The position numbers and the translations under genes are program-made. Positions 11,273 to 29,408 of a stretch of DNA of 34,351 nt are shown here, piece by piece. The notes beneath the pieces are model-generated. The model saw only the letters and a list, made by a program, of their open reading frames with translations. It was not told the DNA's origin and made no database searches. The DNA comes from Acidobacteriaceae bacterium (GTDB lineage: Bacteria; Acidobacteriota; Terriglobia; Terriglobales; Acidobacteriaceae). The stretch's first letter is position 1; each line of letters opens with the position of its first letter. The DNA lies in contig PLOI01000063.1 in the NCBI GenBank assembly GCA_003142015.1, positions 708-35,058 on the forward strand, read 5' to 3'.

Positions 11273-13336
11273 ATGAACTTAGCGGTGCTTTTTCGGAACT
11301 GGATGACCTTTACGGAACAATACGATGTGGTGGTGGTTGGCGCGGGCCACGCCGGGTGCGAGGCGGCGATGGCGGCCTCGCGCATGGGCCTGAAGACGGC
11401 GCTCATCACCATGAACATGGACCTGATTGCGCAGATGAGTTGCAATCCGGCTGTCGGCGGAGTGGCCAAAGGCCATTTGGTCCGCGAGGTGGACGCACTG
11501 GGCGGCGTGATGGGCGAAGTGGCCGACGCAGTGGGGATTCAGTTCCGGCTGCTGAACGCTTCGCGCGGGCCGGCGGTATGGAGTCCGCGGGCGCAGTGCG
11601 ACAAGCAGCTCTACCGTGTGAAGATGCGCGAAGTGCTCGAAGGCCAGTCGGGGCTGCACATCCGTCAGGCTGAGGTGGTGGGGCTGATTGTCGAGGAGGG
11701 ACGAGGGACCAGGGACATAGGGACTGGCGAACAGCGGCGAAAGGTCCTGGGCCTGAGGCTGCGCGACGGCCGTCAAATGCGGGCCGGGGCCACCATCATT
11801 ACCACAGGTACGTTTCTGAACGGGCTGATCCACTGCGGCGAAGAGAGTTATCCGGCGGGGCGCAGCGGGGAACCGGCCTCTGTTCTGCTGGGCGAGGCGC
11901 TGCGGGCGCTGGGGTTGCGGACCTGCCGGCTCAAGACCGGGACGCCGCCACGGCTAGACGGCCGGACCATTCGTTGGGAGGCTTTCGAGGAGCAGGCGGG
12001 CGATGCGGACCCCACGCCCTTCAGCTTCAGAACCAAAAGAATTGTGCAGCCGCAGATCAGTTGCCACATCGCCTTCACCACGCCGGAGACCCTCCGCATT
12101 ATTCGTGAAAATGTGCATCGCTCGGCGATGTATTCCGGGCAGATAGCAGGCATTGGGCCGCGCTATTGCCCATCCATCGAGGACAAGATCGTCAAGTTTC
12201 CCGACAAGACGCAGCACCAGTTCTTTCTGGAGCCGGAGGGGCTGAACACTCACGAGGTCTACGTCAACGGTATGTCCACCTCGCTGCCCATGGCGGTGCA
12301 GTGGGAGATTGTGCGCTCCATTCCGGGGCTCGAGGCAGCCGAGATGCTGCGTCCCGGTTATGCCATCGAATATGACAGCGTGGACGCGACCGAACTGGAC
12401 CGTGCGCTGCGCGTCAAGAGCATCGAGGGCCTGTACCTAGCCGGGCAGATCAACGGGACCAGCGGTTACGAGGAGGCTGCCGGCCAGGGCATCATGGCCG
12501 GCATCAACGCCGCGCTCTGGATCAAAGGTGAGCCGCCTTTCACCATGGACCGGAGCGAGGGCTACATCGGCGTTCTGATTGACGACCTGATCTCCAAAGG
12601 GATCAACGAACCTTACCGGATGTTCACCTCGCGCGCTGAATTCCGGCTGCACCTGCGCATCGACAACGCCGACAGGCGGCTGACCCCGTACGGTCGAAGG
12701 CTGGGGCTGATTGATGACTCGGCCTGGGCGGAGTACGAGCAAAAGCAAGCAAGAATGATTGCGCTTGAAAAGCTGCTCACCACACGCAAGGTCGATCCCG
12801 ATAAGTTGTCCGCCGCGGGTCTAGGCGAACTGACCGCGACCGCCGGCCTAACTTGGGCGCAACTGCTCAAGCGGCCCGAAGTCACAATCGAACCGGTGCT
12901 GGGCGCATTGCGCGAAGACCTCGAGGTCGAGCCGCTTCTCAAGGAGATGGCTGCCCTGACCGCCCAGAATCCAGGCCAGGCCGCGAAGGCCGGGATGGCC
13001 AGTTTGCGCAATGAGGCTCGTGCCGTGGAGACCGAGATCAAGTTTGCCGGTTATCTGGAGCAGCAGAAGAAATCCATTGCCAAGCTGAAGGGCGCCGAGG
13101 CCGTGGCGGTTCCCGAGTGGCTTGAGTACGGCGCCATCAGCGGGCTTTCGCGAGAGATGCGCGAAAAGCTGGAGCGGGTGCGCCCCGGCACCATTGGCCA
13201 GGCCAGCCGCATCTCCGGCGTGACGCCGGCCGCGCTCAGCCTGGTGCATGTATCGATTCGCCTTCAGGGAGCCCGGCGTCAGGCGGGGAAACAAGCCGGC
13301 GTCGCAGCCAAAAGCGTAGAAGGCGATTGCTACTGA
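11273..13336 (+). CDS. mnmG: tRNA uridine-5-carboxymethylaminomethyl modification enzyme MnmG (GidA)
   Basis: A 687-residue FAD enzyme that, with MnmE, modifies the wobble uridine of certain tRNAs. The FAD-binding GAGHAG is at residues 23-28. Family signatures include [28 protein letters not shown], the [16 protein letters not shown] segment and the C-terminal [12 protein letters not shown] and [14 protein letters not shown]. It is longer than the usual ~620-650 residues partly because of a ~14-residue insertion after LIVEE encoded by AGGGAC-type repeats (11697-11725), and partly because of a basic C-terminal tail. TGAGGA at 11258-11263 supports the start at 11273; the ATG at 11303 ([10 protein letters not shown]) is the alternative. 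The 3' end overlaps the converging gene by 7 bases. Confidence 0.95.
11697..11725 (+). repeat. AGGGAC-type heptamer repeat inserted within mnmG
   Basis: Four consecutive units read AGGGACG, AGGGACC, AGGGACAT and AGGGACT. The block stays in frame and encodes part of the extra segment [10 protein letters not shown] that follows the conserved LIVEE of MnmG, between two strands where the E. coli protein has only a short turn. Related G-rich blocks occur in the intergenic region at 13941-14013. Confidence 0.65.
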
Positions 13337-14079: not shown

Positions 14080-14832
14080 CTAGCAGAGTGTTTGCAGCCG
14101 CTCGGGCTCGTGAAGGGTGACCAGGGAGTCCTCGATGGAGATCCAGCCCTCCTTGCGGAACTGGCCCAGGGTGCGGGTGACGGTCTCGCGGGTGGTGCAG
14201 GCCATGGAGGCCATCTCCTCGTGAGTCAACAGTAGGGGGAAACGGAAGCCGCCCTCATCCAGGTGTTCGCCGATCTGGTGGGCCAGCTCTAGGAGCAGAC
14301 GCCCCAGGCGGGCGGCTACGGTCTCGGCCAGGGCGATGCGGCAGGCGTCCTGCAGGGCAAAGCGGTACTCCTGACAGATGCACTGGACGGCGCGCATCTG
14401 GGCCTCTTTGTGGGTGCGCAGAAAGACGAGGAACCGGTCGCGCTCGACGGGACGGAGTTGCGCGGCGGTAAGCGACTCGGCTGAAACTTCGTAGACGCCA
14501 TGCGAAAGAACCGCATACAGGCCCAGCATCGAACCCGGCCCGGCTACGCGGACGATCATCTGTTTATCCTGAAGGCGCCCGGCGGTGAGCTTCAGATAGC
14601 CGCCGCAGATCAGGTAAAGGCAGCGCGCATCCTCGCCCTGGGTGAAGAGCGCGGCCTGAGCAGGCAGCGCGATGGTGCTGGTGGCAAGTTCAAGATCCGC
14701 CAGTACGGCGCTGCCCAGCGAGCAGAACCAGCCGGGGCGGCGATTGGAGCAGGCCGCACACCCCACCGGAACCTGCCGTGCGATGTGTTTCTGCCGTCCT
14801 TGTATTGTTGCCGAGATCTCTGTGTGTGCCAT
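14080..14832 (-). CDS. Crp/Fnr family transcriptional regulator with N-terminal cysteine cluster
   Basis: A 250-residue regulator with a cNMP-type beta-roll sensor (about 38-150), a long dimer helix, and a C-terminal winged helix (about 175-245). The recognition helix TTRETVTRTL (213-222) has R215, E216 and R220 in the R-E-x-x-x-R arrangement with which E. coli CRP reads TGTGA half-sites; FNR has V-E-x-x-S-R there. The N-terminus instead looks FNR-like: Cys25, Cys28 and Cys37 in C-x2-C-x8-C, with Cys71 and Cys76 further on, which could hold an oxygen- or NO-sensitive iron-sulfur cluster. The frame is open to 15009, but the ATG at 14832 (MAHTEIS) fits the family. It is divergent from the cytochrome cluster and has a perfect CRP-type palindrome upstream. 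Confidence 0.9.
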   Translation of the reverse strand: MAHTEISATIQGRQKHIARQVPVGCAACSNRRPGWFCSLGSAVLADLELATSTIALPAQAALFTQGEDARCLYLICGGYLKLTAGRLQDKQMIVRVAGPGSMLGLYAVLSHGVYEVSAESLTAAQLRPVERDRFLVFLRTHKEAQMRAVQCICQEYRFALQDACRIALAETVAARLGRLLLELAHQIGEHLDEGGFRFPLLLTHEEMASMACTTRETVTRTLGQFRKEGWISIEDSLVTLHEPERLQTLC

Positions 14833-14994
14833 GGCCTTGCCCCGTCTGCCGCTGGTTCCATCTCTCCAGCTCGGCTTTTGAATCGAACCCTCCCCGCTGC
14901 GAGCGGGCCGATTCCGAGGTGAAAAATACCCTGGCCTCCTGGGGAAGAGACACTTATCTAATAGAGAGTCTGCCGGAGCTGCCGCCTTTGTGAA

Positions 14995-15010
14995 TGTGAC
15001 GGGCCTCACA
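14995..15010. promoter_or_regulatory. Perfect CRP-type operator, TGTGA-N6-TCACA
   Basis: The 16 bases TGTGACGGGCCTCACA are a perfect match to the palindromic core recognised by CRP-like proteins. They lie 163 bases upstream of the Crp/Fnr-family gene's start, in its promoter region, suggesting autoregulation. The recognition helix of that regulator is CRP-like, which agrees with the site. Confidence 0.65.
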
Positions 15011-15011
15011 T

Positions 15012-15054
15012 CTATGCAAAGCCCCGGCAGACGCGGTCTGCACCCGGCACATAG
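15012..15054. promoter_or_regulatory. Imperfect hairpin beside the regulator operator
   Basis: The core GCAGAC-GCG-GTCTGC (15027-15041) is a perfect 6-bp stem with a 3-base loop. It is extended by GCC/GGC pairs and, at the ends, by CTATG (15012-15016) against CATAG (15050-15054). It directly abuts the perfect CRP-type site and may fold in RNA from either strand. Its function is not known. Confidence 0.4.
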
Positions 15055-15384
15055 CCTTCAAAACCACGGCTTTTTCCGTCCCATCGCCGGGTGGGCCGTC
15101 CATCGGCAACGGCGGAAGCCCTTGACGGCCTAACGCCGGAAAGCAGTACGGCTTCGCGCAGTTTCATCGCGTGAAGGGATAGGTGTCTAATTTTGCACAG
15201 CCGCAAAGCCATAGCCATGTTCTTCTTACGCGGGGAGAGTCTCCAGCATCCCGGTGTTTCTGGTTTCAGAGGGTGGCATTGTATGTTGGCTCTCCGCGGC
15301 TGAGCTTGGAAATTTGTGCCTATCCGGTAGTCAACGTCACCTTCGGACAGGAAATCCAAACCGAAAGAACCCCACCTCGACGGA

Positions 15385-15400
15385 TGTGATGGACATCACC
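15385..15400. promoter_or_regulatory. CRP/FNR-type operator of the cytochrome operon
   Basis: TGTGATGGACATCACC matches TGTGA-N6-TCAC and, read with a 4-base centre (GTGAT-GGAC-ATCAC), also resembles the FNR layout. It lies about 190 bases before the decaheme cytochrome start. The -10-like hexamer at 15423-15428 would put the site centre near -42, where CRP/FNR activators contact RNA polymerase at class II promoters. This position suggests activation. Confidence 0.6.
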
Positions 15401-15580
15401 GCTTGTCATTATGACGAAACCGTAATCTCTCGGTCATGAGTGATGCTCCGCACAAAATGCACCTTCCGCGACTGGGTGGCTGAGACAGTTGCCGCCGGAG
15501 CGGCGGTCCCGAGAGGGGATCTGCCGTTTTGAGCGGCCGGGCACCGGTAAGATTGTTTGCAGAAGTAGCTACGAGAGCAC

Positions 15581-16561
15581 ATGAGGCGGTATTCGATGCA
15601 TAGAAATTGGCCTGTTACGCAATTGCCGATAAGTGCGGCTCCGGGCAAGAGGCCGGGGTTGCGAGTTGGTTTGATGTTACTGCTGGGCGCAGGTATGCTA
15701 TGCGTCCCCGTGCTGGCGGCTCCGGCATCCGCCGCTAAGCCTGCTACCGCGCAGACCAAAGACACCGCGGCCGCGGATTATGTGGGCACCGAAACCTGTG
15801 CAACCTGCCACGAAGAAGTGGTGAAAGGGTTCGCCAACAATCCTCACACCAAGCTGGCCCTTGAACACGGCAAGAACGGGGTCACCTGTGAGAACTGTCA
15901 CGGCGCAGGCAAGGGGCACGTTGAAGGCGGTGGCGACATAACCAAGATTTTCGACCCTGCCAAGGCTACGCCTAAAGAGGTAAACGAGAATTGCCTTGGT
16001 TGTCACGCCGGCACACACCCCAACTTTGATCGTTCGCCTCACGCCAAGGCGGGGGTAAGCTGCATCAGTTGCCACAACGTCCACAAAAGCGCCACCCCGG
16101 AGTTCCTGCTCAAGGCCTCAGAGCCCGCGCTCTGCTTCCAGTGCCACACCGACGTGAAGCCGGCGTTCGATATGCCGTTCCACCATCCGGTGAACGAAGG
16201 CGTGGTCAAATGCAACGACTGTCACGACGTTCACGGCACCTTTGGGAATAACAACCTGAGGTCCACGGCCGATCAGAATATGGTTTGCACCAAGTGCCAC
16301 ACCGATGTGCGCGGTCCTTTCGTTTACGAGCACGCAGCGGTCAAGGCGGAGGGATGCCTGGCCTGCCACACTCCGCACGGCTCGCAGAACCCCCGGCTGC
16401 TGAATATGCCCAGCGTCGGCATGCTGTGCAACCAGTGTCATAGCCCGGTTGCCGCAGGCACAGTGCACGGGATGAGCTCAGGATCGGCGGATCTGCCGCC
16501 CTGTATCGCCTGCCACACCTTTATCCATGGGTCCAACCTCAATCAGGCGTTTCTCAAGTAA
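15581..16561 (+). CDS. DmsE/MtrA-type decaheme c-type cytochrome
   Basis: A 326-residue periplasmic cytochrome with exactly ten CxxCH heme motifs: CATCH, CENCH, CLGCH, CISCH, CFQCH, CNDCH, CTKCH, CLACH, CNQCH and CIACH. The length is close to that of Shewanella MtrA. In this family ten hemes form a wire that passes through an outer-membrane porin and carries electrons between periplasm and cell surface. A signal peptide with hydrophobic core LMLLLGAGMLCVPVLAA spans about residues 30-47. The ATG at 15596 is an alternative start supported by GAGG at 15583-15586. The PioB/MtrB-type porin gene follows 122 bases later, as in mtrAB, mtoAB and pioAB loci. The upstream operator suggests Crp/Fnr control. 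Confidence 0.93.
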   Translation: MRRYSMHRNWPVTQLPISAAPGKRPGLRVGLMLLLGAGMLCVPVLAAPASAAKPATAQTKDTAAADYVGTETCATCHEEVVKGFANNPHTKLALEHGKNGVTCENCHGAGKGHVEGGGDITKIFDPAKATPKEVNENCLGCHAGTHPNFDRSPHAKAGVSCISCHNVHKSATPEFLLKASEPALCFQCHTDVKPAFDMPFHHPVNEGVVKCNDCHDVHGTFGNNNLRSTADQNMVCTKCHTDVRGPFVYEHAAVKAEGCLACHTPHGSQNPRLLNMPSVGMLCNQCHSPVAAGTVHGMSSGSADLPPCIACHTFIHGSNLNQAFLK

Positions 16562-16683
16562 TGGAGCTCGGTCGCGCCCTCTAGACCCATCGGGCGGCGC
16601 GGCCCGGATCCCGTAGCAACTTGGCACACGAGTTCAAGATCTTCGATGTCAGCAACAATGCTCTTTTTCAAGTGAGGCTTCAT

Positions 16684-19365
16684 ATGAGGAACACAGGCTG
16701 GTTTTCCCGGCTGTTCAATCAACAGCCCTCCACCGCAATGATCCGGCGCATAACTGGGGGCGTTGGAGTAGCCGTTTTAATGATGATGACGGGCATTGCT
16801 GCCGCCCAAAACCCGACCGCTCAAATTCCAACGCCGGACTCACAGATGTCCATCCCTGATGGGTACTCGGCCCATGGGACAGTGGACTTGGGTGGGCACA
16901 TGGCCGGCATCACGGGCAGCACCGCCATGTACGATACGCTGGTCAACATTCAGTCCGGGCCGCGCGTGCTTGGCGAGACCTTTGAGATGCATGCGCTGCC
17001 GGGCAACAAGCACACCCTTTTCGATTCCCTCAGCGCCATAGGCGACGGGTTCGGCGGCGATCCGAACAGCTTTTCCAAGCTGGACTTCCATAAGGGGAAG
17101 ATCTACGAGTTCTCGGGAACCTTCCGTCGCGACCGCCAGTACTTCGACTACGACCTGCTGGGCAACCCGAATATCCCCTCCGGGGTAACGGTCCCTTACG
17201 GAAAGACCGCCGGCGTGCCTACCACCGCGGCGCTTACGTGGCCGCAGGTTAACCAGTCGCCGGTGATGTTCAACACCGTGCGTCGCATGACGGACACCAA
17301 CCTCACCCTCTTTCCGCTGTCGACGGTGACCTTTCGAGTGGAATACTCGCATAATATCTTCCAGGGTCCGAGCCTGACCCCCGGTGAATCTGTCGGCAAG
17401 TACGATTCCCTGCTACAGGAGTTTGAGCGCAATAGCACCGACGATTTCACGGGGGCAATCGATTGGAAGCCCCTGCAGGGCACCAAGCTGACCTTTGAAG
17501 AGGAGATTGACCACTACAAGACAGACTCCTATTTCACCCTGGCCCCCAGCGACTTCATCGCGCAAGAGGCCGATGGAACGCCGGTCTCGCTGGGCGATTG
17601 GAACAGCACGTCTGCCCCCTACAGTATCTCTGCCTGCAATACGGGCAGCATGGGCAGCGCGTACACCAACGCAACCAACTACACCATCTTCTCGGCCCCG
17701 CAAACCACCGGCGGCCTGCCTATCATCAACCCGGCCTGCGATGTGGTTACGAGCTATCTGCGTTCGCAGCCCACGCGCATTCTCTACCCCACGGAGACCT
17801 TCCGGTTCCAAAGCACAAGCATCAAGAACGTCACGATGAACGGAGATTTCCGCTACACCAAAGCAAACATGAACCTCCCCAACTACTACGAGAACTTCCA
17901 GGGTCTGGTGGGGGAGTCCGCCACTGCTGCGGGAGTCACCCCCGCATACCCCGCGCAGGCAATCCGCTCTGCCACGTTTACAGGCAGCGCGACGGCAAAG
18001 CGGGAGGTAGTATCTGCCGACTATGGCTTCGTCTGGCAGGCGACAAAGACGGTCAGTCTCTCCGATCAGGTTGACTACTCCAATGTCCATCAGCCCGGCA
18101 CCTCCAACATCTCGTTAGGGATCACAGCAAATACGTCCACGAACCCGAATGAAACCATCAACTACTCGGGTACGCTGGGTCCCGGATCCAATCTAAGTGT
18201 CGAGGGCAGCGCCAACGGCACCGCCCTGCCGGACTACTTCGGTCAGCGGTTCCTGACCAATAACCTGACGGGGAGTTGGGACGCCTTGCCGCGCACGACG
18301 CTCTCGCTCACCTATCGTTACCGTACGCACATGATCGCCGAGGGCGACCAATCGGCCGGGGGCGGCAATCCCGGCAACATTCCGATACCCGTGAGTGCGA
18401 CGAGTGGCGGAACAGTGACCATCAACGAAAACGGCGGAATCTTCAACGCCGCCGTGCGTCCCACCAACGATTGGGATGTCAATGGCACGGTCGAGGTGCT
18501 TTACGACGACAACGCCTTCACCCCGGTCGGTCCGCGGCAAACCAAGCACTACAGAGTGCATACCCTCTACAGGCCGAAGCCCTGGGCCACGCTCTCCGGC
18601 GCCTTTAACGACCTGGAACGGCATAACAACACCAACAACGCCCAGGTCGACATAGCGGCAGGCGGTTTGTACTACGGACCGATCGATCATGTCGATCACA
18701 GCCGGGTTACGAGCCTGGGTGCGGTGCTGACGCCCAACGAGCACTATGGGGTCGATTTCAACTACGCCCATAGCGATGTCTATACGGCGACCAACACTTG
18801 CTATACCAGTGGCGCTGCGGGCGCTTCTTACCCCGGCACTGCCTCGGCTGGGGTCACCGGTGTGCCGAACGTCTATGCGAATGGCGTCTGCGGGGGCGTG
18901 TTCGCACGCGGAACCACCACGCCTGTGGACTGGTATGCCAGGGATTTCATGGATGCTCCCACGCAGTACGGTTCGGTGGCTCTCGCCCTGTCCCCCATCG
19001 ACAAGATCCACTCCCACATTGGTTATCGTGTCAGCTCGGTGAACGGCAATCAATTCTTCAAAGACGCGCGCGATGTCAAGGGATCGCTCGACTCAACCTA
19101 TCAGTCTCCCTTTGTCAATCTTGCATGGACGGTCCATACCGGATTGATTCTGAGAGCGGAATACAACTTCTACGGCTACGGCGAGGGCGGTCCTTCCGGC
19201 GCGGCGTTGTGCAGCACTTCAACGTCGGCCACCGCAGTCGCTATTCCGTGCAACTCTTCCACGATTACCGGCCCGACCGGTCTGACCGAATCGCCTTCCG
19301 GTCTGACCGCACCTCGGAACTTTCATGCAAATAACGTGACCCTCGGAGTTCATTTCGCGTTCTAA
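16684..19365 (+). CDS. MtrB/PioB family decaheme-associated outer-membrane beta-barrel
   Basis: An 893-residue outer-membrane protein that should form the sheath around the decaheme cytochrome encoded just upstream. After a signal peptide (MIRRITG..., ending A-A-A-Q near residue 40) most of the chain is alternating polar/hydrophobic strands with long Ser/Thr/Asn/Gly-rich loops, and it ends in phenylalanine (LGVHFAF), the usual recognition signal for the barrel assembly machinery. It is longer than Shewanella MtrB (~700), with extra loop sequence. No N-terminal CxxC like that of Shewanella MtrB is visible; instead three cysteine pairs sit in putative surface loops. GAGG about 6 bases before the ATG at 16684 supports the start. 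A strong stem-loop follows the stop. Confidence 0.88.
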   Translation: MRNTGWFSRLFNQQPSTAMIRRITGGVGVAVLMMMTGIAAAQNPTAQIPTPDSQMSIPDGYSAHGTVDLGGHMAGITGSTAMYDTLVNIQSGPRVLGETFEMHALPGNKHTLFDSLSAIGDGFGGDPNSFSKLDFHKGKIYEFSGTFRRDRQYFDYDLLGNPNIPSGVTVPYGKTAGVPTTAALTWPQVNQSPVMFNTVRRMTDTNLTLFPLSTVTFRVEYSHNIFQGPSLTPGESVGKYDSLLQEFERNSTDDFTGAIDWKPLQGTKLTFEEEIDHYKTDSYFTLAPSDFIAQEADGTPVSLGDWNSTSAPYSISACNTGSMGSAYTNATNYTIFSAPQTTGGLPIINPACDVVTSYLRSQPTRILYPTETFRFQSTSIKNVTMNGDFRYTKANMNLPNYYENFQGLVGESATAAGVTPAYPAQAIRSATFTGSATAKREVVSADYGFVWQATKTVSLSDQVDYSNVHQPGTSNISLGITANTSTNPNETINYSGTLGPGSNLSVEGSANGTALPDYFGQRFLTNNLTGSWDALPRTTLSLTYRYRTHMIAEGDQSAGGGNPGNIPIPVSATSGGTVTINENGGIFNAAVRPTNDWDVNGTVEVLYDDNAFTPVGPRQTKHYRVHTLYRPKPWATLSGAFNDLERHNNTNNAQVDIAAGGLYYGPIDHVDHSRVTSLGAVLTPNEHYGVDFNYAHSDVYTATNTCYTSGAAGASYPGTASAGVTGVPNVYANGVCGGVFARGTTTPVDWYARDFMDAPTQYGSVALALSPIDKIHSHIGYRVSSVNGNQFFKDARDVKGSLDSTYQSPFVNLAWTVHTGLILRAEYNFYGYGEGGPSGAALCSTSTSATAVAIPCNSSTITGPTGLTESPSGLTAPRNFHANNVTLGVHFAF

Positions 19366-19391
19366 TTCCGTGTGTTGATCGAGTAAGGCAC

Positions 19392-19432
19392 AATCGGCGC
19401 AGTTCCCTTGATGCAAGGGAGTTGCGCCGATT
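19392..19432 (+). terminator. Strong stem-loop after the barrel gene
   Basis: AATCGGCGCA (19392-19401) pairs with TGCGCCGATT (19423-19432). Inside, TCCCTTG (19404-19410) pairs with CAAGGGA (19414-19420) around a 3-base loop, with a GT/GT internal mismatch. It begins 26 bases after the stop. There is no long T-run, so it may be an attenuator or mRNA-end stabiliser as much as a terminator. Confidence 0.65.
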
Positions 19433-19575
19433 CTTGTGAGATGGCACCTTATTGCCATTTCGATTGCTTCCCCAGCGACTGGCGCCTATCGCCGGGGTTA
19501 AAGTATAAGGAAGCAAGCACTCGGCAGGGGATTCTCCCGCGCGACCCGGCCGACAGAATTTCAAGGAGAGTTGCA

Positions 19576-19893
19576 ATGACAAAGATGATCCGTTCCCTCT
19601 TGGTGTTGGCCGTAGTAGCGTGTCTGGCCGGTGCCGTGGGCTTCGCCCAATCCTCTGGTGAAGCGACCTACAAAGCCAAGTGCGCAATGTGCCACGGAGC
19701 CACGGGCGTCCCCAGCGCGGGGATGGCCAAGGCGATGGGCGTGAAGCCGGCCTCCGATCCCGCCATTAAGAAGCTGACCGCGGCCGAGATGTTTACCTCT
19801 GTCAAGAATGGCAAGGGCAAGATGAAGCCGATTGCCGGGCTCAGCGAAGCACAGATCAAGGACGCGGTGTCTTACTACCGCGGCTTGAAGTAA
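19576..19893 (+). CDS. Small class I c-type cytochrome
   Basis: A 105-residue periplasmic monoheme cytochrome. A cleavable signal peptide (MTKMIRSLLVLAVVACLAGAVGFAQ) is followed by one heme motif, CAMCH, near residue 37. The likely distal ligand is the methionine in KGKMKPI near residue 85, as in cytochrome c6/c551-like proteins, and the chain ends with the family's closing helix (EAQIKDAVSYYRGL). It probably shuttles electrons in the periplasm between the inner-membrane multiheme protein encoded next and the decaheme cytochrome. AAGGAG at 19563-19568 sets the start. Stem-loops flank the gene on both sides, so it may be expressed at its own level. Confidence 0.92.
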   Translation: MTKMIRSLLVLAVVACLAGAVGFAQSSGEATYKAKCAMCHGATGVPSAGMAKAMGVKPASDPAIKKLTAAEMFTSVKNGKGKMKPIAGLSEAQIKDAVSYYRGLK

Positions 19894-19923
19894 GGTTACA
19901 ATCGGAACGAGAAGTCAAACAAG

Positions 19924-19943
19924 GCCCGCCGATCTCGGCGGGC
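19924..19943 (+). terminator. Hairpin after the small cytochrome gene
   Basis: GCCCGCCGA (19924-19932) and TCGGCGGGC (19935-19943) form a GC-rich inverted repeat, followed by the T-rich TGTCTATTT. It lies 31 bases after the stop and just before the next start at 19967, so it is either a leaky terminator or an attenuator. Confidence 0.6.
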
Positions 19944-19966
19944 TGTCTATTTGAGAATGGGGGTAG

Positions 19967-21400
19967 GTGCCAGTGTTTCAAAAATTCCGTGAAGGCTGGG
20001 TGCGTCCGGCGCTGTTTTTCGGCAACAATCCCATCAGCCTGGCCGGCGGAGCCATTACCACTGCCTCCGGCGTGACCATGATCGCCTATTGGCTGGTGGA
20101 GATCTTTGGCCGCCCCAACGACAATCCATACCTCGGCATCATCTTCTTCCTGCTTCTGCCCGGCCTGTTTATCGCCGGATTGGCGCTGATCCCGATAGGC
20201 GTGTGGGTGCGCCGCAGAAAGCTGCAAAAGGCCGGGCAGATTCCGGCCGAATTTCCCAAAATCGATTTAAACGACCGCATCTTCCGCCATGGACTCGATA
20301 TCGTTCTGGTGGCTACCATCATGAACCTGCTCGTGGTCTCTGTCGCCAGTTATCGCGGCGCGGCCTACATGGATTCGCCGCAGTTCTGCGGCCAGTCGTG
20401 CCACGTGATGCACCCGGAGTACACGGCCTACAAAATCGCGGCGCACTCGCATGTGGACTGCGTAGCCTGCCACATCGGCTCGGGCGCGGCTTCGTACTTT
20501 GCCGCCAAGGTGAACGGTACCAAGCAGATTCTTGAGGTCACGTTTGATCGCTACCCTACGCCGATTCCTTCGCCGGTTGAGAGCCTGCGCCCGGCGCGAT
20601 ACATCTGCGAGGGCTGTCACACGCCAGCCCGGTTCGTTGGCGAAAAACTGCTGGTGAAGTCGAGCTTTGCCGACGACGAAAAGAATACCGAGACCCAGAC
20701 TGTGGTCGTGTTGCACCTTGGCGGGCTCGATGGACTCTCGCATCTGACCGGAATTCACGGCGTTCATCTGGGCCACATCGAGTACATCGCCACCGATCCT
20801 ACTCGAACCACCATCCCCTGGGTGCAGAAGCGGAACGCCGACGGATCGGAGACGGTCTATGCTGCGTCCGCGCTCAACGGCGCAACTCCCCAGGGCGAGC
20901 GGCGGGTGATGGACTGCATCGACTGCCACAACCGCGCGGCACATCCCTTTGTGACCGCGGAGGAAGCCCTCAACCAGGCTATGGCCGACGGCCCGGTGAG
21001 TCCGGAGTTGCCTTGGATTCACAAAGAGGGGCTGGTGCTGCTGAAGGCCACCTACGCCAGCCAGGTCGAAGCGCGCACCAGGATTCCCGCGCAGCTTGAG
21101 GCCTTCTATCGCTCCGAGCATCCCGAGGTGATGGCCACGCAGGCCAATCTTGTCAAACGGGCCGGAGATGGACTGGTGACCCTTTACAGCCAGAATGTCT
21201 TTCCCTTTATGAAGTTGACCTGGGGAACGCATCCCAACCACATCGGACATATGAGCTATCCAGGCTGCTTCCGCTGCCACGATGGCGATCACATGGCCAA
21301 GGATGGCTCGGCCATTCCTCAGGACTGCTCGGTCTGCCACAACCTTCTGGCAGTGGACGAATCCAAGCCCAAAGTCCTTTCCGATCTCGGTATTCAATAA
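19967..21400 (+). CDS. NapC/NirT-type inner-membrane multiheme cytochrome c (ImcH-like)
   Basis: A 477-residue protein with three N-terminal membrane helices (about residues 24-48, 54-82 and 108-135) and a periplasmic multiheme domain. Five standard heme motifs are present (CVACH, CEGCH, CIDCH, CFRCH, CSVCH), plus one with an extra residue, CGQSCH, placed where NapC/NrfH-type proteins have their first heme near the membrane. The layout resembles ImcH of Geobacter, which passes electrons from the quinone pool to periplasmic carriers for high-potential extracellular acceptors. Here it would feed, or be fed by, the small cytochrome and the decaheme/barrel conduit upstream. Start codons are GTG at 19967 or GTG at 19973; neither has a strong ribosome site. 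Confidence 0.87.
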   Translation: MPVFQKFREGWVRPALFFGNNPISLAGGAITTASGVTMIAYWLVEIFGRPNDNPYLGIIFFLLLPGLFIAGLALIPIGVWVRRRKLQKAGQIPAEFPKIDLNDRIFRHGLDIVLVATIMNLLVVSVASYRGAAYMDSPQFCGQSCHVMHPEYTAYKIAAHSHVDCVACHIGSGAASYFAAKVNGTKQILEVTFDRYPTPIPSPVESLRPARYICEGCHTPARFVGEKLLVKSSFADDEKNTETQTVVVLHLGGLDGLSHLTGIHGVHLGHIEYIATDPTRTTIPWVQKRNADGSETVYAASALNGATPQGERRVMDCIDCHNRAAHPFVTAEEALNQAMADGPVSPELPWIHKEGLVLLKATYASQVEARTRIPAQLEAFYRSEHPEVMATQANLVKRAGDGLVTLYSQNVFPFMKLTWGTHPNHIGHMSYPGCFRCHDGDHMAKDGSAIPQDCSVCHNLLAVDESKPKVLSDLGIQ

Positions 21401-21561: not shown

Positions 21562-23028
21562 ATGTCTTCCAGCCATCCCTTTCATTTCAATCTTGTAGTC
21601 GCGGCCCATGCCGCCATGATCGAGCACGGTTTCCAGCCCGATTTTCCCGCCGGAACCGACAAGGAACTCGGCGCAATCCAGGCCCATCCCGAGCCTCCCG
21701 CCGTAGCCGGAATTCAGGACTTGCGCAGCCTGCTCTGGTCCTCAATCGACAACGATACCTCCAAAGATCTCGACCAGATTGAGTGGGCCGAGCAATTGCC
21801 CGATGGCCGCATCCGCGTGCTCATCGGCGTGGCTGACGTAGACGTGCGCGTGGTTGAGGGATCAATCATCGACGGTCACGCCAAGAGCGAAACCACCTCG
21901 GTCTACACCGGCGTCAGGGTCTTTCCCATGCTGCCTGCCGAACTCTCGGAGGGCATCACTTCGCTCAACGAGAACGAGGATCGCGTGGCGCTGGTCATCG
22001 AGTATGCCGTGGATAAGGCAGGTACGGCCACTGACGGCAAAGCCTATCGCGCGCTGGTCCACAACCGCGCGCAACTGGCCTACAACAGCGTGGGAGCATG
22101 GCTCGAGGGCAAAGGTCCCGCGCCGGCCAAGGTAGCCGCCAACGCCGATCTGGCGGCGCAGCTCAAGCTCCAGGACACGGCCGCTCAGCGCATGGTCGAT
22201 GGACGTTTCCAGCACGGCGCGCTTGATCTGGAAACCATCGAAACCCGCCCCGTGATGCTGGCCGACGATGCGGTCGAGATCGTGCGCCTGACCAAGAACC
22301 GCGCCACCTCGCTCATCGAAGAATTCATGGTGGCGGCCAACGGCGTTATCGCACGCACCTTCGAAGACGCCGGCGTGGCCTCCATTCGCCGCATCGTGCG
22401 CACGCCCAAGCGTTGGGACCGCATCGTCGAGCTGGCCCAGGGCCTGGGCACAACTTTGCCCGCCGAACCCGACTCGAAGGCTCTGAATGATTTTCTGTTG
22501 GCGCAGAAGCGGAAGGACCCCGACCACTTCCCGGACCTCTCGCTGGCCACGGTCAAGCTGATGGGCCCTGGCGAGTACGTGCTCGTCAAGCCCAACGAGG
22601 TTTCTCCCGGCCACTTCGGCCTCGCCGTGCAGGACTACACTCACTCCACCGCGCCCAACCGCCGCTTTCCCGATATGGTGACGCAGCGGCTGATGAAGGC
22701 CTGGCTCGCCAAGGCGCCCCAGCCTTACTCCGTCGACGATCTCAACGCCATTGCCGTTCGTTGCACGCTGATGGAAGACAACGCCCGCAAGGTTGAGCGC
22801 GAAATGCAGAAGCGCATCGCCGCTGTCGTGCTGCACCCGCGCATCGGCCAAAGCTTCCCCGCCATCGTCACCGGCGTCAACCATTACGGCACCTTCGTCC
22901 GCACCCTCGACCCGCACGTGGATGGCATGGTCGTCCAGGGCGGCAAGGGCCTCGACGTAGGCGACAGGGTGACTGTCAAACTGATCTCCACCGATCCACA
23001 GCGCGGGTTTATTGACTTCGCGGTGTGA
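21562..23028 (+). CDS. RNB-domain exoribonuclease with C-terminal S1 domain
   Basis: A 488-residue cytoplasmic 3'-5' exoribonuclease of the RNase II/R superfamily. The RNB domain starts near residue 45; the metal-binding segment is SIDNDTSKDLDQIE, where E. coli RNase II has D-M-D-D. The last acidic position is therefore Gln72, a form I associate with the short Deinococcus DR0020-like branch. Further RNB motifs include HSTAPNRRFPDMVTQRL. An S1 RNA-binding domain closes the protein (from about residue 425, FPAIVTGVNHYGTFVR). There are no N-terminal cold-shock domains, so it is shorter than RNase R. AAGGAG at 21545-21550 precedes the ATG. Confidence 0.9.
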   Translation: MSSSHPFHFNLVVAAHAAMIEHGFQPDFPAGTDKELGAIQAHPEPPAVAGIQDLRSLLWSSIDNDTSKDLDQIEWAEQLPDGRIRVLIGVADVDVRVVEGSIIDGHAKSETTSVYTGVRVFPMLPAELSEGITSLNENEDRVALVIEYAVDKAGTATDGKAYRALVHNRAQLAYNSVGAWLEGKGPAPAKVAANADLAAQLKLQDTAAQRMVDGRFQHGALDLETIETRPVMLADDAVEIVRLTKNRATSLIEEFMVAANGVIARTFEDAGVASIRRIVRTPKRWDRIVELAQGLGTTLPAEPDSKALNDFLLAQKRKDPDHFPDLSLATVKLMGPGEYVLVKPNEVSPGHFGLAVQDYTHSTAPNRRFPDMVTQRLMKAWLAKAPQPYSVDDLNAIAVRCTLMEDNARKVEREMQKRIAAVVLHPRIGQSFPAIVTGVNHYGTFVRTLDPHVDGMVVQGGKGLDVGDRVTVKLISTDPQRGFIDFAV

Positions 23029-23858: not shown

Positions 23859-25253
23859 TTAGACCAGACCCTGATCCAGCATCGCGTCCGCGACTTTCAG
23901 GAAGCCGGCGATATTGGCGCCATTCACGAGGTTGCCCGGCGTGCCATACTTCTTGGCCGTTTCGTAGCAATTCTCATGGACGGCGATCATGATCTTGTGC
24001 AAGCGAGCGTCGACTTCTTCGCGTGTCCACGACAGGCGCATGCTGTCCTGCGTCATTTCCAGTCCGGAGGTGGCGACGCCGCCGGCATTGGAGGCCTTGG
24101 CCGGCCCGTAGAGGACCTTGGCGTCGATGAACGCCTTTGTCGCTTCCAGCGAGCTCGGCATATTCGAGCCTTCGCAGACCAGCTTGACGCCGTTCTTCAG
24201 CAGATTGAACGCATCCTTTGCGTTGATCTCGTTTTGAGTGGCGCTCGGGAACGCGCAATCGGCCTTGATGTCCCACAGCGGGTTGTAGTCTAGCTTGCGG
24301 TTGATGGGCGTGTAGATCGCGTTCCTGTATTTGTCGGCGTACTCCTTGATGCGGCCGCGGCAGTTGTTCTTCAGGTCAAGAACATAGGCCAGCTTCTCGC
24401 GGTCAATGCCGTCGGCGTCGTAAATGAAGCCGTCGGAATCGGACAACGTGACCGTCTTCGCGCCCAGGTCAAGCAGCTTCTCGACCGTATATTGCGAGAC
24501 ATTGCCGCTGCCGGAAACCAGGCAAACCTTGCCTTCCAGCGAGTCTTTCCGCGTCTTCAGCATCTCGTCGGCGAAGTACACGCAGCCGTAGCCGGTGGCT
24601 TCGGGACGAATCAACGAGCCGCCCCATCCCAGGCCTTTGCCCGTCAGAACGCCGGTGAACTCATTGCGCAGACGCTTGTATTGTCCGAATAGATAGCCAA
24701 TCTCGCGTCCGCCCACGCCGATGTCGCCGGCCGGGATGTCTGTGTCGGGGCCGATGTGGCGTTCCAGTTCGCTCATGAAGCTCTGGCAGAAGCGCATCAC
24801 TTCGTTGTCGCTCTTGCCCTTGGGATCGAAATCGGATCCGCCCTTGCCGCCGCCCATGGGCAGCGTGGTCAGCGAGTTCTTGAATACTTGCTCGAACGCC
24901 AGGAACTTCAGAATGCCGAGGTTGACCGAGGGGTGCAAACGCAGTCCGCCCTTGTACGGACCGATGGCGCTGTTCATTTCAATGCGGAAGCCGCGATTGA
25001 TTTGCACGTCGCCCTTGTCGTCGAACCAGGGAACGCGGAACATGATCACTCGTTCCGGCTCGGTGATGCGCTCCAGGATCTTTTCTTTCTGATACCGCGG
25101 GTGGCGATCCAACACAGGCTTCAAGGAATCGACCACTTCATGAACGGTCTGGTGAAATTCCGGCTCGCATGGGTTCTTGGTTTTCACGAGGTTGAGAATG
25201 TGATTGACATACTCCGCTGCATTACACGTAAGCGGTTCCATAACAGCACTCAT
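23859..25253 (-). CDS. gdhA: Glutamate dehydrogenase, hexameric NADP-type
   Basis: A 464-residue cytoplasmic enzyme interconverting glutamate with 2-oxoglutarate and ammonium. It aligns along its length with the ~450-residue bacterial GDH family. The substrate and catalytic segments are intact: FRIEMNSAIGPYKGGLRLHP, LPMGGGKGGSDFDPKG with the catalytic lysine, and PAGDIGVGGREIGYLFGQY. A nucleotide-binding VSGSGNVSQYTVEKL follows. NADP preference is inferred from family resemblance only. GGAGG lies 8 bases before the ATG; Met5 is an alternative start. It follows the Vor/aminotransferase operon on the same strand, about 300 bases after ilvE. There it could recycle glutamate formed by transamination to 2-oxoglutarate, or supply glutamate for the reverse reaction. 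Confidence 0.94.
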   Translation of the reverse strand: MSAVMEPLTCNAAEYVNHILNLVKTKNPCEPEFHQTVHEVVDSLKPVLDRHPRYQKEKILERITEPERVIMFRVPWFDDKGDVQINRGFRIEMNSAIGPYKGGLRLHPSVNLGILKFLAFEQVFKNSLTTLPMGGGKGGSDFDPKGKSDNEVMRFCQSFMSELERHIGPDTDIPAGDIGVGGREIGYLFGQYKRLRNEFTGVLTGKGLGWGGSLIRPEATGYGCVYFADEMLKTRKDSLEGKVCLVSGSGNVSQYTVEKLLDLGAKTVTLSDSDGFIYDADGIDREKLAYVLDLKNNCRGRIKEYADKYRNAIYTPINRKLDYNPLWDIKADCAFPSATQNEINAKDAFNLLKNGVKLVCEGSNMPSSLEATKAFIDAKVLYGPAKASNAGGVATSGLEMTQDSMRLSWTREEVDARLHKIMIAVHENCYETAKKYGTPGNLVNGANIAGFLKVADAMLDQGLV

Positions 25254-25555: not shown

Positions 25556-26542
25556 TCAACCGGCAATAATTCCTGCCAGAGAACCATGGTCCTGCTCTTG
25601 TTTCATCCGCGCTTTGTAAACCGGCGTCAGCCAATTCAAGTAAGTCCGCAAATGTCCTCGCGTCGCATCGAAGTACAACTGTTGCACCTCGCGCGTAATC
25701 GCGCCGATCTTTCCATCTTTCACTAGCCGATGATCAACTTGCGTCACGGGCGAAACTCCCACTGCCGTGCCGGTGAAGAGCAGCTCGTCGCAAACATACA
25801 ACTCGCTGCGGTCGATGGGGCGCTCCACAACCTCGACACCCAATTCCCGCTGCGCCAGCTCCATCACTGCGTCGCGCGTGATGCCCTCCAGCACGTTCTC
25901 GGTCACCGGAGGTGTGATCAGTTTTCCCTTGCGCACCATGAAGATGTTGCATGATGAGCCCTCGGCAACATGACCGGCGTCGTTCAGAAAGATGGCTTCG
26001 TCGAAACCGCAGCGGTGGGCGTCGTCACTGGCCAGCGCGCTGTTCACGTATGCTCCGCAGATCTTGCCCCGCGCCGGAATCGCATTGTCGTCGATGCGCC
26101 GCCAGGAACTAACGCCCGCGTGCACTCCACCTTCTTTGGCCAGATATTCGCCAAAGGGAAGCGCGATCAGCGCAAAGGCGTTTTCGTCGTCGTAGCTTAT
26201 GCCCACGCGCTCGGCGCTTTTGTATGCCAGCGGCCTAACATATACATTCGTCCGAAAGCCATTCCTCCGCATCAGCTCGATGGTTATCTCGGTCAACTCC
26301 TCGGGCGACAGCGGAACAACAATCCGCAGGAAACCGCAGTTCTGCTTCCAGCGCTCATAGTGCTCCACGGGGCGCATCACAAACAGTTCCTGCTGCGCTT
26401 CATCCCAGTGCGCGCGAATCCCTTCAAACACGCCCGTGCCGTAGTGCAGGGCGTGAGTCAGAATTCCTACGCGCGCATCGGCAAGCGGCATATAACGCCC
26501 GTCGAAGTACACAATCATCTGCGGATCTCCATCAGTACGCAT
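25556..26542 (-). CDS. ilvE: Branched-chain amino acid aminotransferase
   Basis: A 328-residue fold-type IV PLP enzyme that exchanges the amino group between leucine, isoleucine or valine and 2-oxoglutarate. Signatures are IVYFDGRYMPLADARVGILT, LHYGTGVFEGIRAH, the PLP lysine Lys160 in IPARGKICGAYVNS, and NDAGHVAEGSSCNIFMVR. The start at 26542 overlaps the end of the upstream beta/gamma subunit gene by 11 bases and has AGGAGG about 7 bases before it, so translation is probably coupled. Being last in an operon with a 2-oxoacid:ferredoxin oxidoreductase suggests its products are oxidised to acyl-CoA, or that it aminates 2-oxoacids made by the reverse reaction. Confidence 0.92.
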   Translation of the reverse strand: MRTDGDPQMIVYFDGRYMPLADARVGILTHALHYGTGVFEGIRAHWDEAQQELFVMRPVEHYERWKQNCGFLRIVVPLSPEELTEITIELMRRNGFRTNVYVRPLAYKSAERVGISYDDENAFALIALPFGEYLAKEGGVHAGVSSWRRIDDNAIPARGKICGAYVNSALASDDAHRCGFDEAIFLNDAGHVAEGSSCNIFMVRKGKLITPPVTENVLEGITRDAVMELAQRELGVEVVERPIDRSELYVCDELLFTGTAVGVSPVTQVDHRLVKDGKIGAITREVQQLYFDATRGHLRTYLNWLTPVYKARMKQEQDHGSLAGIIAG

Positions 26543-28004
26543 TGCACACCTCCTGGCACGACTCTATGTAGAGCGCGCGGCCCTTTGCCAGCGCGCGCCC
26601 GTTCAACTCCATCCAGCGAGGACTCTTCACCAGCCGTTTGAATGCCGCGTCAATATTTACGTCTCGCAAAACTCCGGCGATCTCCAGCAGCGCGCCCAGC
26701 ATCACCATGTTGCAGGCTCGCGCGTCGCCCAGTTCGTCGGCCACTCGCGTGAAAGGACACGCCAGCACATGAATATCATCCTGTTCGCAATCGGCGGGGA
26801 ACGCATCGCCGTTGTATAGAATCCATCCCCCCGCTGGCACGCTCTTATAGAACTTCCTGAGCGAAGGCTCATTCATCGCCACCAGCACATCGGGATTCAT
26901 CACCATGGGCGAATCGATAGCATGCCTCGACAGACGCACATGGCAGTTCGAAGTGCCGGATCGCATCTCAGGTCCATACGAAGGCAGCCATGAAACCTCA
27001 AGGCCAGCATCCAACCCGGCCTCGGCTAGTACCTCGCCCAGCAGCAAAACTCCCTGTCCGCCAAAGCCCGCCACTCGTACGCGAAGATCCATCACTGCCT
27101 TCTCATCGTGCGCCGCCGGATTGCCTTCCGGCAGATCCTCGTTCGCGACGCCAAGAATTTTCGGAATCCGATCAAGCGCCGGTGCAGGCTCGGGCAACTG
27201 CCGGGGCTGCGCCTCTTTTGTGCGATCGAGAATCACCTTGAGCGGGAAAATCTTTCCCAACACATCGCGCACCCAGCGCTGCGCGTCCACGGGGTTCATC
27301 TTGAAGATCGTCGGGCACGGCGCCAGCACTTCGACCAGCGAAAAGCCCAGCCCGCGCACCTGGTTGTCCAGCGCGCGCCGCACAGCGCGCGTCGCCTGCG
27401 CAATCTGCTTGTTGTCTCCCAGACCAACTCGCTCAATGTAGACGGGAGCGTCCAGCGTGGCCAACATCTCGCTCATGTGCAGCGGATAGCCCTCGTTCTG
27501 CGCGCTGCGTCCGAAAGGAGTTGTCGCGGTCTTCTGAAGCAACGGGGTGGTAGGCGCCATCTGTCCGCCCGTCATGCTGTAGATTCCGTTGTTCACGAAG
27601 ATGACCGTGATATTTTCGCCGCGATTCGCCGCATGAATAATCTCCGCAGTTCCAATCGACGACAAATCGCCGTCGCCCTGGTAGCTGATCAGGATGCTCT
27701 CCGGCCTGCTCCGCTTGATGGCCGTGGCCACCGCCGGCGCGCGTCCATGCGCCACCTGCACGTTGCCCACGTCGAAGTACTCGTATGCCAGCACCGAGCA
27801 ACCCACCGGGCTGATCAGAATCGTCCTGTCCTGGATGCCCAACTCATCGATAGCCCGCGCCACCATCTTGTGCACGATGCCGTGCCCGCACCCTGGGCAA
27901 TAGTGCGTCTGGTGCTGCAACTCATCCTTGCGCTCAAAGCGCGCGAAGAATGCCTTCGGCCGGGCGTGCGACACTTCGTATTCAGAAACCATCTCGCTAG
28001 GCAT
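26532..28004 (-). CDS. 2-oxoacid:ferredoxin oxidoreductase, fused beta (TPP) and gamma subunits
   Basis: A 490-residue fusion. Residues 1-270 are the thiamine-diphosphate beta subunit: CPGCGH (36-41), and GDGD (110-113) with NN (138-139), the TPP/Mg motif. After a Pro-rich linker (about 265-305), residues 306-490 are the gamma subunit, opening with [21 protein letters not shown]. Together with the VorB-type alpha subunit and the ferredoxin-like subunit it should convert a branched-chain 2-oxoacid plus CoA to acyl-CoA, CO2 and reduced ferredoxin. The ATG overlaps the alpha gene stop by 8 bases (ATGCCTAG). In many anaerobes beta and gamma are separate proteins, so the fusion is notable though not unique. 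Confidence 0.9.
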
Positions 28005-29091
28005 TTGTCATCCGCTCCTCTTCCAGTTGCATTTCCGACAGAATTCGTCCCGCCTGTTGCTGTACGATCCCGAGAACCTCTTCGTGTGACGGAACATTCC
28101 CGCCCACGCGACTGAAGAACTCCACCGGACGCGCGCCGTTCACCGCGAGCCGCACATCTTCCACCATTTGCCCGTTGCTCATCTCCACCACCACGAAAAC
28201 GCGCGCCGTCTTGGCCAGGCGCTGAAAATTCTTGGTAGGGAACGGATACAGCGTGATCGGCCGCAGCACGCCCACCTTGATCCCGTTCGCGCGAGCTTCG
28301 GCTGCCACGGCCTTCAAAATCCGCGCCACAATCCCGTAGCCCACCAGCACAATCTCCGCGTCCTCGGTTTGCCACTCTTCGGCGCGCACCTCGCACTCTT
28401 CTACGCGGCGATACTTTGCTTCCAAATCGAGTTGATGCTTCTCCAGCCCATCGTTATCCAGAACCAGCGATGTCAAGAAGTTGCCGCGCGTCTCTTTCGT
28501 TCCCGCCACAGCCCAACCCGGCATGCGCGGCTCGACGGCCGTCTGCGGAAACTCGACCGGCTCCATCATCTGCCCGATAAATCCATCTGCCAGCAGCACC
28601 ACCGGATTGCGATAGCGGTCGGCCAGCTCAAAAGCCAGCGCGGTCAAATCCGCCATCTCCTGCACGGAATGGGGCGCCAGCACGATCGTCCGATAGTTGC
28701 CGTGGCCGCCGCCCTTCACCACCTGGTGATAGTCGCCCTGCTCGGAGGAAATGTTTCCTAATCCCGGCCCGGCACGGGTAATGTCCACGATCACGCAGGG
28801 CAACTCCGCGCCCGCCAGGTAGCTCATACCTTCCTGCATCAGGCTGATCCCCGGTCCGCTCGAAGACGTCATCACCCGCACGCCCGCCGATGCAGCGCCG
28901 TACAGCATATTGATCGACGCGACTTCGCTCTCCGCTTGCAGAAACACTCCGCCTGACGGCGGCATGTAAAGCGCAGCGGCCTCGGTAATCTCAGTCGCGG
29001 GCGTGATGGGATATCCATAGAACGCGCGACATCCAGCGAGAATCGCGCTCTTCACAACCGCTTCGTTGCCCTTCATCAGTTGCTTGCGCAT
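27997..29091 (-). CDS. vorB: 3-methyl-2-oxobutanoate:ferredoxin oxidoreductase alpha subunit (VorB-type)
   Basis: A 364-residue pyrimidine-binding alpha subunit. The sequence closely follows VorB of valine/branched-chain 2-oxoacid oxidoreductases: [76 protein letters not shown], and [15 protein letters not shown]. Substrate specificity for branched-chain acids is inferred from this resemblance and from the neighbouring aminotransferase; 2-oxoglutarate or pyruvate would be alternatives. The start at 29091 overlaps the preceding ferredoxin-like gene by 16 bases, with GGGGG about 8 bases upstream. Confidence 0.9.
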
Positions 29092-29378: not shown

Positions 29379-29408
29379 TTCCACCCCTCCCCGGCCGGCC
29401 GTAAGCAC

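Follow-up and report, generated by a model that had tools for sequence, protein, structure and literature searches.

Can a single gene cluster of a soil-type acidobacterium supply an electrical connection between the inner membrane and the cell exterior, and in which direction would the electrons run? The question is raised by a 34,351-nucleotide stretch of Acidobacteriaceae DNA (assembly GCA_003142015.1, contig PLOI01000063.1; "the window" hereafter means this whole stretch), in which genes for a decaheme MtrA-type cytochrome (mtrA), an outer-membrane barrel (mtrB), a small cytochrome c (cyc) and an ImcH-type cytochrome (imcH) follow one another, with a Crp/Fnr-type regulator gene (crp) divergent from them. 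The present study suggests that this one conserved cluster probably encodes such a connection, and we put at roughly 0.6 the probability that it is a conduit of MtrAB type, fed by ImcH, that moves electrons outward when oxygen is limiting. An earlier reading made from the letters alone (the sequence-only reading) had already placed these five genes in a row and named their products; domain matches, heme motifs and a barrel model agree with it on the placement and on every part: the Crp/Fnr regulator, the MtrA/DmsE-type decaheme, the MtrB-type barrel fold, the small cytochrome c and the ImcH-type protein. The source assembly is an 88%-complete draft of 3.42 Mb, the window lying on a 75,867-base contig, and all statements below about the organism's own genome refer to this draft. 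The elements of the cluster are as follows.

14080-15009, minus strand: Crp/Fnr-type regulator, open reading frame (ORF) of 309 amino acids (aa), from Pfam, an N-terminal C-x2-C-x8-C and a RETVTR recognition helix
15386-15399, no strand assigned: predicted operator of the mtrA promoter, inverted repeat GTGATGGACATCAC, of the form GTGAY-N4-RTCAC, conserved in relatives
15423-15428, plus strand: TAATCT, predicted -10 element, from its spacing to the operator
15581-16561, plus strand: MtrA/DmsE-family periplasmic decaheme cytochrome c, 326 aa, from 10 CXXCH motifs, TIGR03508 and a family profile
16621-19365, plus strand: predicted MtrB-fold outer-membrane barrel, ORF of 914 aa, from an AlphaFold model, a PDB structure match, family scans and hydropathy
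19576-19893 (ORF opens at 19408), plus strand: monoheme class-I-like periplasmic cytochrome c, 105 aa from an internal ATG, from PF13442 and one CXXCH
19967-21400, plus strand: ImcH-type NapC/NirT inner-membrane cytochrome, 477 aa, six heme motifs, from Cytochrom_NNT and motifs

The two proteins that would cross the outer membrane were recognized by different routes. MtrA contains exactly 10 CXXCH motifs and passes the NCBIfam DmsE family model TIGR03508 (255 bits, cut-off 192); it also matches NF041028, the model of the GSU2203 decaheme, with an E-value of 8.7e-64, but at 215.7 bits stays below that model's cut-off of 325. A profile built from 31 MtrA sequences retrieves chain A of the Mtr complex structure (6r2q_A) with an E-value of 1.7e-57; we take this chain to be MtrA, the PDB file labelling it with another molecule name. 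Forty mtrAB stretches were retrieved from the family, some of them running out at the end of a contig. Of their 40 mtrA genes, 36 have ten heme motifs; a contig end truncates two of the others (L043, L063), and our script read the remaining two in a wrong frame (L037, L052), though both show ten motifs on re-inspection. Pfam and NCBIfam both leave the window barrel unmatched at E 0.01, as do looser scans, the MtrB/PioB models PF11854 and TIGR03509 included, which weakly match 3 and 2, respectively, of the 41 barrels in our alignment; nor does a barrel profile match any PDB sequence at E up to 1. NF041027 matches 30 of these 41 barrels (best E 1.5e-10), the window barrel not among them. The AlphaFold model of the window protein is a large beta barrel (pTM 0.69), its top PDB structure match is MtrB (6r2q_B), and in the structure searches MtrB alone stands clear of unrelated barrels, supporting an MtrB-type fold for the modelled protein. 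Its start, with a signal peptide, is probably Met40 at 16738. The barrel was modelled alone; the joint divergence of mtrA and mtrB described below is indirect support for a decaheme that would sit in the barrel and conduct.

On the inner-membrane side, the imcH product matches Cytochrom_NNT (NapC/NirT) with an E-value of 1.6e-10 and carries five CX2CH motifs and one CX3CH, the latter at residue 141. Published papers, cited here by PMC number, enter this study as excerpts, and what is said of them applies to those excerpts. The heme motifs fit the ranges published for ImcH, a CX3CH by the membrane domain and 5-9 CX2CH (PMC6295460). Hydropathy gives two clear helices (57-75, 105-123), a first segment falling below our script's threshold, and the family has been described with three N-terminal membrane motifs (Zhong and Shi 2018, PMC6295460). 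A profile of 20 ImcH-type relatives picks out NrfH, a quinol dehydrogenase (2j7a_C, E 1.3e-11). Two forms occur among relatives, one short with 5+1 hemes and the other longer with 6+1. The small cytochrome has one CXXCH and a PF13442 domain; because a signal-peptide-like segment lies there with AAGGAG upstream, its start is likely the internal 19576 rather than the ORF start at 19408. With that start, 73 bases follow cyc, the gaps after mtrA and mtrB being 59 and 210 bases. In one relative (L032, 10357-12154) the small cytochrome gene stands in four tandem copies between mtrB and imcH, against at most two matches in the other mapped loci.

The sequence-only reading proposed a search for the same gene order in other Acidobacteriota, and the order recurs beyond chance. 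We kept 80 named loci from at least 576 confirmed ImcH loci, a sample biased toward near ones, and scored their content with our own thresholds, some loci lying on short contigs. mtrA and mtrB are both present in 30 of the 80, one of them only in 9 and neither in 41; the order mtrA-mtrB-cyc-imcH on one strand is found in 24, all from records titled Acidobacteriota of some kind, and a divergent crp ortholog of more than 60% identity in 15. The named loci closest to the window belong to Acidobacteriaceae, Terracidiphilus (now filed under Occallatibacter, Acidobacteriaceae, in the NCBI taxonomy) and unclassified Acidobacteria metagenome-assembled genomes (MAGs), which bears out the earlier assignment to an acidobacterium. 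Within the family, the barrel was matched in 48 of 100 genomes and imcH was present in 19 of the 40 fetched stretches; the family and named sets overlap, L035, L041 and L047 probably being the same loci as L092, L094 and L120. Across the phylum, ImcH (E up to 1e-40) was found in 174 of 396 genomes and the barrel (E up to 1e-10) in at least 84, a lower bound because scoring took two candidates per genome. Barrel and imcH lie, on either strand, within 5 kb in at least 27 and within 15 kb in at least 35 of these 84, as tallied from the matches listed, with places transcribed by hand. One relative with imcH-cyc-mtrB-mtrA (L034) is a complete genome of 4,127,356 bases (G047). Acidobacterium capsulatum ATCC 51196 is listed as an Fe(III) reducer with ImcH (PMC6295460).

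Some relatives depart from this pattern. The syntenic locus L076 (8319-9811), whose sequence is free of N, has no barrel gene, and the small cytochrome gene comes straight after mtrA. At L084 (6362-9021, isolate AB60, which has crp and the operator) the barrel matches as two overlapping pieces with an open frame of 511 residues, a frameshift or a sequencing error. In one genus (g105 of family f24) many genomes that have ImcH are missing from the barrel matches; these may have another route across the outer membrane.

The Crp/Fnr protein (HTH_Crp_2 1.4e-18, cNMP_binding 1e-10) probably starts, from the alignment of its orthologs, at Met60 (14080-14832). The N-terminal C-x2-C-x8-C is kept in all 19 aligned orthologs, which by inspection also share a RET(V/I)TR recognition helix; an N-terminal Cys cluster joined to a Crp helix-turn-helix is the sequence criterion of the FNR type. 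Each of the 19 crp-mtrA intergenic regions contains one GTGAY-N4-RTCAC inverted repeat, against a mean of 0.6 and a maximum of 4 of 19 in mononucleotide shuffles scored with a slightly looser pattern. TANNNT begins 23-25 nt after the site in all 19, a count made without a shuffle control. Such operator-to--10 spacing is that of a class II CRP/FNR-activated promoter, and the position of TAATCT in the window fits a promoter of this kind. Of the 38 mtrA genes in the wider family whose upstream sequence is long enough, 24 are preceded by the site (0.046 expected per gene), and TANNNT falls in a 19-34-nt window in 15 of these 24; in the named set the site lies upstream of 24 of 29 (0.028 expected per gene). 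These counts are not independent events, the two sets sharing members and the loci being related. The FNR box TTGAT-N4-ATCAA was rejected as the operator, no copy occurring in the window within one mismatch.

The second exact GTGAY-N4-RTCAC site of the window lies upstream of a minus-strand operon for a 2-oxoacid:ferredoxin oxidoreductase, which shares this site type with mtrA and may be co-regulated with it.

30916-30929, no strand assigned: second exact GTGAY-N4-RTCAC site, GTGATGAGTGTCAC
25556-30764, minus strand: possibly co-regulated operon, whole
29409-30764, minus strand: its CoA transferase
29076-29408, minus strand: its ferredoxin subunit
27997-29091, minus strand: its VorB-like alpha subunit
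26532-28004, minus strand: its beta/gamma fusion
25556-26542, minus strand: its branched-chain aminotransferase

Among 30 fetched loci (7 of 37 matches had no locus), the site occurs within 800 nt upstream of the CoA-transferase gene in 21, against 0.071 expected; the count covers this gene only, and orientation is uncertain in a few loci (L169, L177). The closest relatives have it at 72-165 nt; elsewhere the distance is mostly 546-701 nt, and another gene may intervene. A narrower count, with a 500-nt limit and 10 of the 30 loci lost for lack of a recognized ORF, gives 7 of 20. The conduit thus apparently is controlled together with an anaerobic-type metabolism, as judged from shared sites. 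A glutamate dehydrogenase gene (23859-25253, minus strand) comes after the 2-oxoacid operon. Regulation at a further site in the organism's own genome (L161, 9978), before a CbcL-like gene, is not claimed, no well-placed -10 being visible by eye.

The outer-membrane pair may have a history of its own within this arrangement. Of 24 loci we compared the 17 with usable crp, mtrA, mtrB and imcH; L084, whose barrel is split, and six loci that are incomplete were left out. Twelve barrels are window-like (type a) and four are of a second type (b); L045 is intermediate and was scored b. Mean barrel identity is 29.5 between types versus 57.3 within a and 57.5 within b, and mean MtrA identity 54.9 versus 66.1 and 70.8; of the flanking genes, Crp gives 79.9 between types versus 77.6 and 82.1, and ImcH 72.9 versus 73.9 and 79.1. 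Pairwise identities correlate best for mtrA-mtrB (0.82), followed by mtrA-imcH (0.67), crp-imcH (0.59), crp-mtrA (0.41), mtrB-imcH (0.30) and crp-mtrB (0.09). Measured against the window, type-b loci have ImcH proteins 78-82% identical and barrels 27-29% identical; L033-L035, L037, L091-L093 and L095 have 53-57% and 51-58%, and L040-L042, L047, L094, L119 and L120 have 52-58% and 32-42%. The simplest reading of these comparisons is that the mtrAB pair was replaced as a unit while the flanking genes were retained, a pattern that a required fit between MtrA and barrel would produce; Baker et al. have made a similar argument for MtrAB (PMC8805035). The imcH tree and the crp+imcH tree each require one change of barrel type and the weakly supported crp tree requires 3-4, and an approximately unbiased (AU) test does not reject type b as a single clade (p 0.26). 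A single replacement, which suffices on the imcH tree, is therefore claimed here, and not repeated barrel swapping. Fast joint divergence of mtrA and the barrel, instead of replacement, is a possible alternative.

What lies at the outer end of the conduit bears on the claim of the sequence-only reading that it is complete, a description that is not supported. An MtrC-type terminal cytochrome was sought in the window and in the organism's own genome and was not found over cut-off: mtrA and imcH are the only window ORFs with at least three heme motifs, and the 88%-complete genome has no OmcA/MtrC-family (TIGR03507) match over cut-off, two matches below it lying on contig 120 (E 0.03-0.05). Cytochrome c assembly genes were found. 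Contig 29 (L161, 7768-11798) carries an 11-heme membrane-anchored protein, a cytochrome b-like protein and a CbcL-like multiheme-b561 gene with a 30-N gap; contig 23 has a 9-heme protein, and weaker multiheme matches lie on contigs 60, 65, 120 and 153. The 11-heme and CbcL-like proteins of contig 29 are 65% and 50% identical to proteins encoded between mtrB and imcH in L091. Components that relatives have in a single cluster are thus split between two loci in this genome. Accessory cytochromes vary among relatives. In loci of the L035/L091 type, the proteins with 11-13 hemes that are encoded between mtrB and imcH were considered as surface terminal reductases and rejected because the large ones scanned (L091, L053, L105) have a C-terminal cytochrome b561 domain; these look CbcL-like, that is, inner-membrane.

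From these elements we propose the following course of events. The Crp/Fnr protein would sense low oxygen or redox state through its N-terminal Cys cluster and activate mtrA by way of the GTGAY-N4-RTCAC site, and would probably activate the ferredoxin-dependent 2-oxoacid oxidation operon as well. Menaquinol would be oxidized at the inner membrane by ImcH; the small cytochrome c, the periplasmic hemes of ImcH, or both, would hand the electrons to MtrA; and MtrA, sheathed in the MtrB-fold barrel, would carry them across the outer membrane. As no MtrC was found, the exposed end of MtrA may reduce the acceptor directly, be it Fe(III), Mn(IV), humics or a partner. The sequence-only reading had left Fe(III) reduction and Fe(II) oxidation both open; the evidence now leans outward without settling the matter. 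ImcH itself, the anaerobic-looking operon with the same site and the lack of a detected RuBisCO (PF00016) all point outward. In addition, GSU2203/2204 are induced by hematite in Geobacter (PMC4070692), and the MtrAB of Shewanella oneidensis works without MtrC (PMC4245776). The CbcL-like partners in relatives are a further, not decisive, point: the CbcL family occurs in both kinds of organism, so such neighbours do not discriminate (PMC6295460).

Several observations weigh against outward transfer as set out here. By sequence the small cytochrome resembles class-I proteins with His/Met ligation (KMKP supplies the candidate Met), and class-I cytochromes are usually of high potential, which would make an awkward donor to a low-potential MtrA. 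The gap between cyc and imcH contains a GC-rich hairpin (19923-19944, weak T tail) that could split the transcript or be a possible attenuator; such hairpins are no commoner than in shuffles, and sigma-70 and terminator scans were likewise no richer than shuffles. GTGA-N6-TCAC is a general CRP-type core, so another Crp/Fnr paralogue could bind the site, and in Acidobacterium sp. S8 (L094) the cluster is present while the searched interval contains no site. GSU3259 is the locus tag of Geobacter imcH. In the hematite table in which GSU2203/2204 are up, GSU3259 falls 2.8-fold (PMC4070692). The cluster lacks a surface cytochrome, as do the Fe(II)-oxidizing mto/pio systems, the MtoD of Fe(II) oxidizers is also a short cytochrome (PMC10654088), and at 88% completeness the absences from this assembly are weak evidence.

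Some of these points are what electron uptake would predict, with MtrAB oxidizing Fe(II) or another extracellular donor, the small cytochrome c passing electrons to a terminal oxidase in the Mto/Pio manner and ImcH working backwards as a quinone reductase. The mtr-type clusters found in Fe(II) oxidizers likewise have no MtrC (PMC4245776), the monoheme class-I-like cytochrome would be in place, and 27 PioA/MtoA homologs have been reported in the class Acidobacteriia (PMC10654088). We nevertheless regard uptake as unlikely: no RuBisCO was found in the 88%-complete genome, ImcH has so far not been implicated in quinone reduction in the survey excerpt (PMC6295460), and the operator common to mtrA and the 2-oxoacid operon suggests anaerobic control. 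Less likely still is a conduit used both ways, or mainly for redox balancing to humics or shuttles rather than growth on minerals; the missing MtrC, the variable accessory cytochromes and the titles of 16 of the 80 named loci, which mention humic-rich bog, palsa, fen or peat, would suit it, but sequence does not separate it from outward transfer.

That the genes stand together by history only, with no working conduit, is very improbable. imcH is unlinked in some relatives (the L036 stretch is without it, and G006 has it on another contig), L076 lacks the barrel gene, and the 41 ImcH loci with neither mtrA nor mtrB could be read in the same way; yet the gene order of the 24 named loci, the operator in 19 of 19 crp-mtrA regions and the ten heme motifs in 36 of 40 mtrA genes speak against this reading. 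We give the least credence of all to DmsEF-like extracellular respiration of dimethyl sulfoxide (DMSO) or another small oxidized compound through a molybdoenzyme. The decaheme does pass the DmsE-family model, but no DmsAB-type gene is among the genes examined beside the cluster, and the only PF00384 match in the 88%-complete genome is a NuoG-like protein beside NuoH (named by inspection); with no DmsA-type protein found, this explanation was rejected.

How new is the arrangement? The sequence-only reading had set it apart from known systems by its co-located inner-membrane and periplasmic carriers, a contrast that is not supported. In mtoABD-cymA and in mtrCAB-pdsA-cymA/netBCD an inner-membrane quinone enzyme and a periplasmic carrier are co-encoded with the conduit (cymA, mtoC, mtoD, pdsA/netBCD; PMC6295460, PMC10654088, PMC8805035); those systems use CymA, MtoC or NetBCD whereas the window uses ImcH, and mtrCAB has MtrC. 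The contrast is weakened further by group 2 of the Ghost-rock porin-cytochrome clusters (PMC13264449, 2026), MAG-derived, in which a decaheme lies beside a 25-36-strand porin and 6 of 8 clusters have an ImcH- or NapC/NirT-like cytochrome, so that this combination is already reported; the excerpt mentions neither the present lineage nor a regulator, operator or monoheme gene. As in the Shewanella Mtr system (MtrA/MtrB, PDB 6r2q), an MtrA/DmsE-family decaheme adjoins an MtrB-fold barrel, but in the window the barrel is missed by MtrB/PioB sequence models, no MtrC was found and an ImcH-type cytochrome stands in place of CymA. The likeness to Geobacter sulfurreducens GSU2203 (OmcK)-GSU2204, which are up with hematite and magnetite (PMC4070692), is that the window MtrA matches NF041028 and most relatives' barrels NF041027, a family described as MtrB/PioB family barrels (PMC13188914); the window differs in an MtrA under the NF041028 cut-off and a barrel without an NF041027 match, and the excerpts of PMC4070692 and PMC13188914 say nothing of imcH being linked to GSU2203-2204. 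The window imcH shares the CX3CH after the membrane region, the five CX2CH and the NapC/NirT domain of the ImcH family but is linked to mtrAB, whereas in its excerpt the 2018 survey found no mtrAB beside any imcH (PMC6295460). The Group 5 MtrCAB of Acidobacteriia also places MtrAB in Acidobacteriota but differs in having MtrC and, downstream of mtrB, a tetraheme protein, with no quinone enzyme in the vicinity (PMC8805035). The operator, its sharing with the 2-oxoacid operon and cassette exchange in Acidobacteriaceae are undescribed in the excerpts of PMC6295460, PMC8805035, PMC4245776, PMC3669403, PMC10654088, PMC7399161, PMC11748539, PMC12133095, PMC12977616, PMC4070692, PMC13188914, PMC13194489, PMC9248073 and PMC13264449, a set largely outside which fall subscription papers and preprints. 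The parts are thus relatives of known ones in an arrangement that is little described.

The cluster is flanked by mnmG (11273-13336) on one side and an RNase R-like gene (21562-23028) on the other; between them lie a DUF4440 gene, the divergent Crp/Fnr gene, mtrA, the barrel gene, the monoheme cytochrome gene and the imcH-type gene. GC content and GC3 (GC at third codon positions) of the cluster are similar to those of its neighbours, the GC3 of mtrA being somewhat lower (71.5 versus 77.7 for mnmG).

Collectively, these comparisons lead us to propose, tentatively and with the odds somewhat against it, that Acidobacteriaceae own a widespread form of trans-envelope respiration. In it, a sequence-divergent MtrB-fold barrel and its decaheme would be inherited and exchanged as a cassette, fed by ImcH rather than CymA, free of MtrC and switched by an Fe-S Crp/Fnr protein together with ferredoxin-dependent amino-acid oxidation, the conduit serving as the electron sink for anaerobic peptide or amino-acid catabolism in peat. 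The shared operator proposes what metabolism would feed the conduit. If the conduit is real, a conserved, regulated ImcH-MtrAB locus would be a marker for this capacity, it would explain why MtrB sequence models miss such conduits, and the question of who reduces iron in acid peat would become testable in isolates.

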